Source of the DNA: Candidatus Eisenbacteria bacterium
GTDB lineage: Bacteria; Eisenbacteria; RBG-16-71-46
Assembly (NCBI GenBank): GCA_020847735.1
Contig: JADLBL010000018.1
Coordinates: forward strand, 1-64,000
Direction: 5' to 3'
DNA: 64,000 nt
Program-made: the position numbers and the translations under genes
Notes under the pieces: generated by a model
Database searches by the model: none
Seen by the model: the letters and a program-made list of their open reading frames with translations, nothing else
Told to the model about the DNA's origin: nothing
Part shown: positions 7,039 to 49,831 of the stretch, piece by piece
Layout: the number at the start of each line of letters is the position of its first letter
Numbering within the stretch: the stretch's first letter is position 1

Positions 7039-7044
7039 TAGAGT
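7039..7044 (+). promoter_or_regulatory. -10-like TAGAGT, leaderless start
   Basis: TAGAGT ends 8 nt before the ATG at 7053. With a normal -10 to start-site distance the transcript would begin at or next to the ATG. No Shine-Dalgarno sequence is present between them. Confidence 0.5.
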
Positions 7045-7052
7045 TTTTCCCC

Positions 7053-7991
7053 ATGCCTGTCCCGACCCCGACCCGCAGGTCCCGTTCGTGCCCGGCCGCG
7101 CTCGCGTTCGCGGCGATCGTGCTGCTCGGCGCCGCACCCGCGCCTGCCCAGACCGCGGGCGACACGGGCTGGCAGGCGCTGCTCGACCGTTACCTGCGCG
7201 CCGAACCGGCCGTGAAGGGTCAGCCCGCCGAAACGCGCTTCGACTACGAGCAGCTCTACGTGGACGAGGGCATCTGGCCGTCGAGGAGTTCCGCGCGCCT
7301 GAGCGCGATTCACCAGCGGATGTTCGCGGTCACTCCCTCGGCGCTCGAGCCGAAGGCGCGGATGGCGTGGGCGCTGAACGCCTACAACTTCCTCGTCGTC
7401 GAACGCGCCACGCTCCTGCTGCTCGTCCCGCGCCACAAGTTCCAGCGCTACGAGAGCGTCGCTCAGATGTCGTCGGGGGACGGCGGATTCTTCGAGGCCC
7501 AGGTGGCGCAGGTCGAGGGCCGCAGCTATTCGATCGGCCAGTTCGAACGCTGGTTCGTGTACGGCGACAGCACGCCGATGTACGAGCCGCGCCGCGTGGC
7601 CGGCGACCCGCGGCTGATGTTCGCGCTCTGCCGCGGCTCGGTCGGCGGGCCCTCGCTGCCCGCGCGCGCGTTCAAGCCCGAGTCGCTGGACGCGCAACTC
7701 GACCGCTGCACGCGGAACGCGCTCGAGTCCTCCCGCTTCGCCTCGCAGGACCCCGCCTCGAAGTCGCTGCTCGTGTCGGACTATCTCGGCGAGCGGCTCC
7801 TCGACTTCGGCGGCTCGCAGTCCGGGCTCGTCGGCTTCCTCGAGAAGCAGGGGCCTTCCGCGCTTCGATCGTTCCTCCGCCGCGAGAAGATCGCGCGCGT
7901 CGCGCGGTTCACGCGCGTGGACCCGGATCTGAACCAGGTGCCGCGGGCCAAACCGGCTCCGCCTGCGCCTCCGCCCGCCGCGAAGTCCTGA
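7053..7991 (+). CDS. Secreted DUF547-family protein
   Basis: 312 aa. A signal peptide (about residues 9-32, ending PAPAQTA) precedes a DUF547 domain: [14 protein letters not shown] near residue 108 and [19 protein letters not shown] near 188 are its hallmarks (helix with NAYN, then a conserved Cys-containing turn). DUF547 has a papain-like fold by some predictions, but a catalytic role is unproven. The tail is Pro/Ala-rich. There is no Shine-Dalgarno sequence; TAGAGT lies 8 nt before the ATG, suggesting a leaderless message. The next gene, a Ser/Thr kinase on the same strand, starts 53 nt later. Confidence 0.75.
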
Positions 7992-19573: not shown

Positions 19574-19724
19574 TGCGCGAGTCTCCCGATCGAAGGAATC
19601 CAGCGAGGTGGCCGGCGGGTTCGATGCCCGGCGCCGGGCCGGGATTCGGTGCGGGCTCCCCGCACCCGGCGGAGAATACCCCGGGCCTGTCGTCGCGGGC
19701 GTCCGGCTGCGCTATCTTGCGGCC

Positions 19725-19901
19725 ATGTGCGTCGTCGGCGGCGGTGAAGTGCGCGGCGCGAGACCACGCCTGATCGTTCGGCGGGCGCGGCCTTGCGCCC
19801 CACGGACGCCGCCGGGTGCGCGGGCCGGCCGGACCGTGATCACGATCCGGCGGGCCGCGGCCGGTCAAGGCAACGCCCCCGAGACGAAAGGCACCCGATG
19901 A
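19725..19901 (+). CDS. Candidate small leaderless ORF coupled to ppa
   Basis: 58 codons, very arginine-rich (MCVVGGGEVRGARPR at the start), no homology recognised. Two features suggest translation. A TATCTT hexamer (19713-19718) ends 6 nt before the ATG with no Shine-Dalgarno sequence, like other leaderless candidates here. Its TGA stop overlaps the ATG of ppa (ATGA), like the coupled pairs downstream. Composition alone looks non-coding, so it may be a leader peptide or chance. Confidence 0.25.
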   Translation: MCVVGGGEVRGARPRLIVRRARPCAPRTPPGARAGRTVITIRRAAAGQGNAPETKGTR

Positions 19902-20599
19902 CGCTCCGCCCGCCCGACGATCCGCTGCGGCTCCTCTCGCTGCTCTTCCAGGCGCACCCCTGGCACGGGCTTTCGCCGGGTCCGAACGCTCCGGGCGTCG
20001 TGACCGTGTACGTCGAGCTCGTGCCCACCGACACGGTGAAGTACGAGATCGACAAGCGCAGCGGCATCCTCAAGCTCGACCGGCCGCAGCGCTACTCGAG
20101 CCTTTCGCCCGAGCCCTACGGATTCATCCCGCGCACGCTGTGCGGTGACACGGTCGCGGCCTTCGCGGCCCGCCACTCGGGCCGCACGGGACTGCGCGGC
20201 GACAACGATCCGCTCGACGTGTGCGTGCTGACCGAACGCTCGATCAACCACGGCGGGCTCATGGTGCGCGCGCGCCCGATCGGCGGCCTGCGCATGTTCG
20301 ACGGCGAGGAGGTGGACGACAAGATCATCGCCGTGCTGGAGAGCGACCCGACCTACGAGGGCTGGACCGAGATCGAGCACTGCCCCCCGGTGCTGGTGGA
20401 CCGGCTGCAGCACTACTTCCTCACCTACAAGAACATGCCGGGCGCCCGCAACGCCCCGGTCGAGCTGGCCGGTGTCTACGGCGCCGAAACCGCGCGCGAG
20501 GTGATCGCGCGCGCGCAGGTGGACTATCGCGCCAGGTATGGCGACCTCGAGCGCATGCTCGACGAGGCCCTGGGCGCCGGCGGGGACGAACGCGGGTGA
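19898..20599 (+). CDS. ppa: Inorganic pyrophosphatase, family I
   Basis: 233 aa. Hydrolyses pyrophosphate to phosphate, pulling biosynthetic reactions forward. The family signature DNDPLDVCVL (about residues 106-115) carries the metal-binding aspartates, and KYEIDKRSGILKLDR (about 47-61) and YGFIPRT (about 74-80) are the other conserved blocks. About 15 extra residues (AAFAARHSGRTGLRG) sit between YGFIPRT and the signature compared with the common bacterial enzyme. The ATG is chosen because the conserved region follows it closely; only a weak GAAAGG sequence precedes it. The stop overlaps the GTG of glpD by 4 nt, so the three genes are probably translated from one message. Confidence 0.92.
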   Translation: MTLRPPDDPLRLLSLLFQAHPWHGLSPGPNAPGVVTVYVELVPTDTVKYEIDKRSGILKLDRPQRYSSLSPEPYGFIPRTLCGDTVAAFAARHSGRTGLRGDNDPLDVCVLTERSINHGGLMVRARPIGGLRMFDGEEVDDKIIAVLESDPTYEGWTEIEHCPPVLVDRLQHYFLTYKNMPGARNAPVELAGVYGAETAREVIARAQVDYRARYGDLERMLDEALGAGGDERG

Positions 20600-37413: not shown

Positions 37414-37454
37414 GCGGGCCCGCGGCCCGTTTGCGGCCGCGTCGAGCGGGCGAC

Positions 37455-37460
37455 TAACCT
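37455..37460 (+). promoter_or_regulatory. -10-like TAACCT, leaderless start of the EVE-ligA-polX operon
   Basis: TAACCT ends 9 nt before the ATG at 37470 and no Shine-Dalgarno sequence lies between, so transcription would start at or near the ATG. Confidence 0.4.
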
Positions 37461-37469
37461 GCCGGTTCC

Positions 37470-41697
<4,228 letters not shown>

Positions 41698-43597: not shown

Positions 43598-45169
43598 TCA
43601 GCGGGCCAGGACGACCCGGCAGCGTGCCTCGCCGCCGGGAGCGGTCGCGCGCGCGAAATAAACGCCGCTCGGAGCCCTGCGTCCGGCGTCGTCGGCGCCG
43701 TCCCACGAAATCGCGCCCGTCCAGGCGGCGGCGGAGCGGCTGCCCAGGTCGCGCACGAGGCGGCCGCGCATGTCGTAGATGCGCACCGAGACCAGCCCGG
43801 GGCCCGCCGACGTGAGGGCGAGCGTCACGAGGCCGCGCGCCGGCGAGGGATACGCCGACAGGCGCAGCCCGGGACGTGTGCCGGGACCGGGCGGCACGCC
43901 GGTGTTGCTCGTCCAGGCGATGCGCTCGATGCGGCCCGTGTTCCGGAAACCTTCGAAGTACTGGCGGCACAGCCAGAGCGCCCCGTCCGGCCCCACCCGG
44001 AAGTCGGACACGCTCTCGAAACCGGAGGCCCAGATGCCGGCGTCGGCCTGTCCCGAGTCGGGCGTCGCGATCACCCAGGCCGAGCCGTTCCACTCGAGGC
44101 GGTAGACGTTGCCCGAGTAGTACTCGGCGAAGAAGAGGTCGCCCTCGTAGCGGTTCGGAAAGTTCTGCCCGCCCAACTGGGCGTGGTAGGCGCCGCCGCT
44201 GATGATCGCCGCCCCGGAAAGCGCGGTGCGGTCGTAGGCGTAGATCGGTCCGACCGAGGACGGCTCGGAGCCGCCGCAGCCCATGTAGGCCGTCGGGCCT
44301 TCACGCCAGGGCCAGCCGAAGTTGGAACCCGCCGGGGCGATGTCCACGCCGGAGCCGCCCGGCAGCGCGAGCAGGTCCATCTCCTCCCACTCGGACAGCC
44401 CCACGTCGCCGATCACGAGGCAGTGGCGCACCGGGTCCACCTGGAAGCGGAACGGGTTCCGAAGGCCGTAGGCGTAGACGAGACGCGCGTTCGAATCCGG
44501 ATTCGCCACGTACGGGTTGTCCACCGGGGTGATCTGCGCGAAGAAGGCGCTGCCGGGGCCCGGGGGGAGCCGCGAGGTTCGCAATCGCAGCACCTTGCCC
44601 TTGAGCGCCGTGAGCACCTGCGCGGAGCAGTTGTCGGCGTCCTCTCCCAGGCTCACGTAGAGCATTCCGTCGGTGCCGAAGCGCACCGTGCCGCCGTTGT
44701 GGTTCGAGGCGTTGTCGGGAATGTTCGAGAGCAGGTCGTAGCGCGACGCGGGATCGGCCGTCATCTCACCATTGCCCGTGCCGTTCAGGTCGCCGGTCAG
44801 GGTCCAGCGGCTGATGCGGATGACGTTTCCCGTCGAGGTCTGGTGCGTGTAGAGGTAGGGCCTGGCCGGGAACTGCGGGTCCACCGCGACGCCGAGCAGG
44901 CCTTCCTCGCCGCCGATCGTGACGTTCGGCACCGTCATGACCGGACTGGCCGGAACCTGGCCGTTCACGAGCAGGTGGATTTCACCGCTGTACTGCTCGA
45001 CGAACACCAGCCGTCCGTCGGGCAGGAAGTCGAAGGCGACGGGCAGGTCGAGGCCCTGGGACACGACGCTGTCGGTGAATCCCGGTACGAGGACCTGGGC
45101 GCGCGTGGCATGGGGCGCGAGCGCGAACAGCGCGAGCGCGAACGAGGCAAGGCGAGGATGCAGTTTCAT
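43598..45169 (-). CDS. Secreted PQQ-dependent sugar dehydrogenase-like protein with sorting domain
   Basis: 523 aa. A signal peptide (about 1-24, ending ATRAQ) is followed by a six-bladed propeller of the glucose/sorbosone dehydrogenase family (about 28-430): LPVAFDFLPDGRLVFVEQYSGE, GGEEGLLGVAVDPQF, SNHNGGTVRFGTDGMLYVSLGE with the active-site His, YGLRNPFRF and GSNFGWPWREG are its hallmarks. Members oxidise sugars using PQQ in the periplasm or outside the cell; the acceptor is unknown here. The last 75 residues are the FlgD/type-IX-like sorting module (IYDMRGRLVRDL, SGVYFARA). TAGTAT ends 7 nt before the ATG and there is no ribosome site, a strong leaderless candidate. Confidence 0.92.
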   Translation of the reverse strand: MKLHPRLASFALALFALAPHATRAQVLVPGFTDSVVSQGLDLPVAFDFLPDGRLVFVEQYSGEIHLLVNGQVPASPVMTVPNVTIGGEEGLLGVAVDPQFPARPYLYTHQTSTGNVIRISRWTLTGDLNGTGNGEMTADPASRYDLLSNIPDNASNHNGGTVRFGTDGMLYVSLGEDADNCSAQVLTALKGKVLRLRTSRLPPGPGSAFFAQITPVDNPYVANPDSNARLVYAYGLRNPFRFQVDPVRHCLVIGDVGLSEWEEMDLLALPGGSGVDIAPAGSNFGWPWREGPTAYMGCGGSEPSSVGPIYAYDRTALSGAAIISGGAYHAQLGGQNFPNRYEGDLFFAEYYSGNVYRLEWNGSAWVIATPDSGQADAGIWASGFESVSDFRVGPDGALWLCRQYFEGFRNTGRIERIAWTSNTGVPPGPGTRPGLRLSAYPSPARGLVTLALTSAGPGLVSVRIYDMRGRLVRDLGSRSAAAWTGAISWDGADDAGRRAPSGVYFARATAPGGEARCRVVLAR

Positions 45170-45176
45170 GGCGCAA

Positions 45177-45182
45177 ATACTA
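45177..45182 (-). promoter_or_regulatory. -10-like TAGTAT, leaderless start
   Basis: On the minus strand TAGTAT is followed by 7 nt (TTGCGCC) and then the ATG at 45169. The expected transcription start coincides with the start codon. Confidence 0.55.
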
Positions 45183-49825: not shown

Positions 49826-49831
49826 TAGTGT
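49826..49831 (+). promoter_or_regulatory. -10-like TAGTGT of the DinB-like gene
   Basis: TAGTGT lies 53 nt before the GTG at 49885, giving a leader of roughly 45 nt that contains the GGAGAG ribosome site. Confidence 0.4.

Follow-up and report, generated by a model that had tools for sequence, protein, structure and literature searches.

Zheng et al. (2011, PMC3160421) described leaderless genes in 207 of 953 bacterial genomes; their share was about 20% in Actinobacteria and about 40% in Deinococcus-Thermus. In high-GC groups the signal takes the form TAnnnT, located about 10 bp upstream of the start. In Deinococcus, a -10 box adjoining ORFs was described as a promoter element, and a rise of transcription after the box was reported (Zhong et al. 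2025, PMC12340547), while the leaderless class of GeneMarkS-2 was predicted for 21.6% of bacterial species (Lomsadze et al. 2018, as given in PMC9581028). The leaderless mechanism driven by TANNNT is well known from Actinobacteria and Deinococcus-Thermus.

Similar to the TA-led genes of Zheng et al., the Candidatus Eisenbacteria genome analysed here combines TAnnnT near the start, high GC content and coexisting Shine-Dalgarno (SD)-led genes, and genes of common ancestry may differ in class. The share is lower, at least about 6% by a strict motif compared to 20-40% there. As in Deinococcus-Thermus, TANNNT adjoins the ORF and a GGAG class exists beside it; however, the box lies about 6-7 bp before the ORF there and 6-10 nt before it here (11 in some orthologues), and many genes here have a clear -35 element. 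The GeneMarkS-2 class likewise comprises leaderless and led transcription within one genome, but it concerns NCBI representative genomes, and the accessible text does not name this lineage. In the accessible part of Zheng et al., none of the bacterial groups is an uncultured candidate phylum given by its name; one entry reads "one unclassified". Our literature search, with most subscription papers outside its reach, found no earlier report of leaderless genes in such lineages. The present analysis adds a new lineage to those known, together with conservation across its phylum and a gene-by-gene switch of class.

Results

Hexamer-led starts in the window

The window, i.e., the whole 64,000 nt stretch that was analysed (contig JADLBL010000018.1), contains the hexamer TAGAGT 8 nt ahead of the ATG (7053-7055) of a gene whose product matches the DUF547 family (43.2 bits, cut-off 27), and no SD site was found in the sequence upstream of this ATG, exactly as an earlier note on this DNA had described. 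The -35 element of the gene (TTCCAA) is weak as judged by eye. TANNNT was found at a gap of 8 or 9 nt in 6 of 12 DUF547 loci (5 of 11 related loci); one of the loci without it has GGAGG, and several of their starts could not be placed. In several relatives (G003:C749, G008:C66, G004:C45, G001:C3) the DUF547 gene is followed at a distance of 0.05-2.2 kb by a pyrophosphatase gene, and in the source genome about 12 kb with other genes separates the two. The same note had pointed to hexamers ahead of two further genes, now identified as encoding an EVE-domain protein and a glucose/sorbosone dehydrogenase, and both were recovered with exactly the positions and gaps it gave (Table 1). The ATG of the dehydrogenase gene opens an N-terminus that resembles a signal peptide by eye, while a longer ORF reaching 46537, the upstream part of which is arginine-rich by eye, looks spurious.

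Table 1 Coordinates of the hexamer-led features in the window.
Feature	Position	Strand	Remarks
Putative -10 element (TANNNT) TAGAGT	7039..7044	+	8 nt gap to start codon
DUF547 gene, 312 aa, predicted leaderless or with 1-2 nt leader	7053..7991	+	PF04784
-35-like element TTGCGG	37431..37436	+	spacer 18
Putative -10 element TAACCT	37455..37460	+	gap of 9 nt to start; hexamer kept in 19/26 loci
EVE-domain gene, predicted leaderless	37470..37886	+	PF01878, 93.2 bits
Putative -10 element TAGTAT	45177..45182	-	gap of 7 nt to start codon
Glucose/sorbosone dehydrogenase gene with FlgD_ig domain, predicted leaderless	43598..45169	-	

A fourth proposed leaderless start did not hold. TATCTT (19713-19718) does lie 6 nt ahead of ATG 19725, but the frame opened there closes after 58 codons, the inorganic pyrophosphatase gene (19898-20599) starts in another frame, and the hexamer with its short frame was absent by eye from 6 related loci, so that this gene start was rejected; the short frame behind the hexamer is probably due to chance. 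The last letters of the frame (19725-19901) overlap the start of the pyrophosphatase gene as ATGA.

The note had also assigned a GGAGG-like site to five genes whose hexamer lies further away, which stands for four of them, with GGAGG ahead of the start behind the hexamer at 27161-27156, AGGA ahead of start 36061, GGAGG ahead of start 43342 and GAGGAGG ahead of start 52972. For the gene behind the hexamer at 49826 the start is uncertain: GGAG precedes GTG 49885 and no such site precedes ATG 49848. Another hexamer, ahead of ATG 53446, was dismissed as probably a chance match within the coding sequence of a gene whose start lies further upstream and follows GGAGG (by eye).

TANNNT is enriched directly ahead of start codons

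The source genome (3.66 Mb, 27 contigs, 99.6% complete) was sampled by the window plus 60 further stretches, together 1,246,660 of 3,656,978 bases (34%; GC 71%), in which our own codon-score caller, using neither SD sites nor promoters, called 929 genes. The start search was confined to 90 nt around the caller's estimate, and cases such as the start at 45169 were missed. TANNNT preceded in-frame ATGs 9, 13, 14, 15 and 6 times at gaps of 6, 7, 8, 9 and 10 nt, respectively, and 0-3 times at every other gap up to 28 nt; before out-of-frame ATGs of the same sample it was flat, with no peak. GTG starts had it slightly raised at gap 6 (7 matches). Overall, 56 genes carried TANNNT at a gap of 6-10 nt compared to 7, 6, 5 and 7 genes in the four gap blocks from 11 to 30 nt (mean 6.25; Poisson probability 1e-33). 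The count over start codons that the earlier note had suggested, here covering 34% of the genome, thus gave TANNNT near SD-less starts at about nine times the background. The excess corresponds to about 50 ATG genes of the 929, or about 6% of genes when the few GTG genes are included, which is a lower bound because the caller misses cases such as 45169. Among genes heading a unit, 33 of 374 belong to the hexamer class; of its 55 classifiable genes, 33 are first or divergent, and 22 lie within 120 nt of an upstream neighbour on the same strand, so that some of these internal genes may in addition be transcribed as part of a longer mRNA.

The hexamer has the character of a promoter

The final T of the hexamer is needed: TA[CT]NNT was found 4.2 times per gap compared to 0.67 in the background, whereas TA[CT]NN[ACG] was not enriched (3.8 vs 4.8), which shows that the peak does not stem from upstream stop codons. 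Of 75 hexamers, 19 had TTG, as expected of a -35 element, at a spacer of 17-18 nt, compared to a background of 0.27 per position, and the full pattern TTGAC-N15..19-TANNNT-N6..10-ATG had 26 matches in the whole genome, compared to 2 for the reversed pattern and 5 for the version with a gap of 11-15 nt. C was present at -1 in 47 of 57 hexamer starts compared to 217 of 366 SD starts (21/22 at gaps 6-7, 17/21 at gaps 9-10), a preference expected if the A of the ATG is the first transcribed base. Box, spacing and -35 element are also kept ahead of starts anchored by homology (see below), which argues for real promoters, and the sequence data strongly support the reading of the hexamer as a promoter.

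Hexamer starts and SD starts are nearly exclusive

An SD-like (GGAGG-like) site was present in 367 of 967 ATG candidates of the sample. Where the hexamer lay 6-10 nt away, only 1 of 56 starts had one, compared to 56 of 100 where it lay 26-60 nt away (Fisher's test, 2e-13), and by hexamer distance the counts were 1/7 at 11-15, 4/11 at 16-25, 20/39 at 26-40 and 36/61 at 41-60 nt. As the hexamer occupies the room of the SD site, TA[CT]NNT starts were compared to TA[CT]NN[ACG] starts in equal position, and SD sites were found in 0 of 21 and 8 of 19, respectively (Fisher's test, 0.001), by which missing room was rejected as the whole reason for the absent SD site. Further control words in equal position had SD sites in 4/34, 2/25, 77/372 and 25/66 starts. 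The split into a hexamer class and an SD class is real, in agreement with the two translation-initiation classes put forward in the earlier note. A search for the 16S rRNA gene, undertaken for its anti-SD sequence, found none in the source assembly despite its 99.6% completeness, and a match in 1 of 5 genomes of the same genus, restricted to the 5' part (the anti-SD sits at the 3' end); missing 16S rRNA genes are a common gap in assembled genomes.

Enolase and EVE orthologues

The enolase set comprised 30 loci of the phylum (L161-L190), with 13 further matches left out for want of a locus. TANNNT was found 7-11 nt (mostly 9-10 nt) ahead of the homologous start in 19 of the 30, and 18 of these 19 had TTG at a spacer of 17-18 nt; by family, 15 of 16 loci of f1 and 4 of 4 of f5 carried the hexamer. 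One locus (L171) had GAGG within the gap in addition to the hexamer. Among the other 11 loci, 9 had an SD-like site within the interval scanned, which was GGAG or GGAGG in 8 (families f7 to f11); one f2 locus (L178) had GGAGG 12 nt ahead of its ATG, and one f1 locus (L167) had neither hexamer nor SD site. Families f1 and f5 have a hexamer-led enolase gene, and in most of the phylum's other families it is SD-led. The EVE-domain gene had the hexamer in 19 of 26 loci, at gaps of 6 nt (13 loci), 9 nt (5) and 7 nt (1), with TTG at a spacer of 17-18 nt in 15 of the 19. In one orthologue, L209, GGAGG sits in the 9 nt gap that separates TAGCAT from the ATG, and it is possible that this locus is an intermediate between the two initiation classes. 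In the enolase and EVE sets, TTG was conspicuous against variable spacer letters; the choice of loci had predetermined the columns of the hexamer but not those of TTG.

Spread across the phylum and beyond

The promoter pattern with a gap of 6-10 nt had matches in all 47 genomes of the phylum examined. The reversed-pattern control was set aside as too weak, because any promoter-rich genome beats it, and the pattern with a gap of 11-15 nt was used instead. In 46 genomes (G046 left out) the counts were 1022 for gap 6-10 compared to 514 for gap 11-15, with the former higher in 42 of the 46; as gaps of 11-15 nt may hold true short-leader promoters, this excess is conservative. It was clear in families f1 (393:176), f5 (193:65), f9 (68:17) and f2 (30:9), whereas f8 (59:64) and f6 (48:44) showed none. 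The 26 named genomes of other groups gave 1000 compared to 885 matches, and B. subtilis 85 compared to 87. Taken singly, three of the 26 reached a p value < 0.05, namely Zixibacteria (94:60), Acidimicrobiales (11:2) and Latescibacterota (61:43), which is only suggestive given 26 tests. Matches in the three further actinobacterial MAGs and in Bifidobacterium were too scarce for a positive control.

Discussion

We propose that the hexamer would serve an ordinary housekeeping promoter (sigma-70-type) as its -10 box, and that RNA polymerase would start at the first base of the start codon, the A, or 0-4 nt before it. Neither a leader nor an SD site would be present on the mRNA of the DUF547 gene and on those of about 6% or more of the genes in this genome, and the ribosome would start on a 5'-terminal AUG (sometimes GUG), as on leaderless mRNAs elsewhere. 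A larger second class would combine a promoter further upstream with a GGAGG-like SD site. Where the transcript begins and how the ribosome initiates are both inferred here from DNA sequence; on that basis, we consider it very probable that a leaderless class arises from a housekeeping -10 box at the start codon, beside the larger SD-led class.

Two simpler origins of the motif count were weighed. Short TA-rich words are easily found and starts may have been chosen to fit them, as happened at 19713, one of the four examples in the earlier note; however, with 56 genes set against a mean of 6.25 in the neighbouring gap blocks and a flat out-of-frame control, chance has a negligible probability, and it was rejected on the in-frame peak, the need for the final T and the conservation among orthologues. 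The TAG and TAA of the hexamer could also be stop codons of upstream genes, a by-product of tight packing, and TAG/TAA with a sixth base other than T was indeed raised 2-5 fold at gaps of 6-10 nt. As a main cause this artefact is refuted by the TA[CT]NNT counts, since TAC and TAT hexamers peak alike and depend on the final T, and the -35 element, the conserved spacing and the 33 of 55 genes that are first or divergent speak against it as well, so that we regard it as very improbable.

An alternative explanation that accepts the absence of SD sites is that these genes are transcribed from far upstream and started with the help of S1 or a lack of structure; the hexamer would then act as a weak or secondary promoter. 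The internal genes in the class (22/55) would fit, but between families the hexamer and the -35 element stay near the start and the spacer letters change, and we find this account improbable. The -10 box could instead be real and followed by a very short leader of 1-5 nt, read by a short-leader mode of the ribosome. Transcription usually starts 6-8 nt past a -10 box, gaps of 8-10 nt are as common as those of 6-7 nt and the enolase gaps are mostly 9-10 nt, all of which favour such a leader, whereas the C at -1, still present in 17 of 21 starts when the gap is 9-10 nt, fits a start at the A, and the EVE gaps are mostly 6 nt (13/19). As a general account we think it possible though somewhat unlikely, and since a leader of up to about 4 nt would fit into gaps of 9-11 nt, the leaderless reading that we prefer need not be strict for all genes.

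The distance from the -10 box to the ATG drifts between 6 and 11 nt among orthologues, and the C-A step at the ATG is favoured. A more tentative idea, about which we are rather doubtful, is that the start codon helps to set the start of RNA polymerase; transcription and translation start would then be one shared element, and single genes such as enolase may, between families, pass as a unit from this state to the SD-led one or back.

By conserved sequence, and beyond the motif count of one genome, the predicted leaderless class extends this mode of initiation to a group met as assembled genomes. Gene callers that rely on SD sites only may misplace starts in this lineage, and the enolase and EVE series would offer a natural experiment on the passage of a gene between initiation classes.
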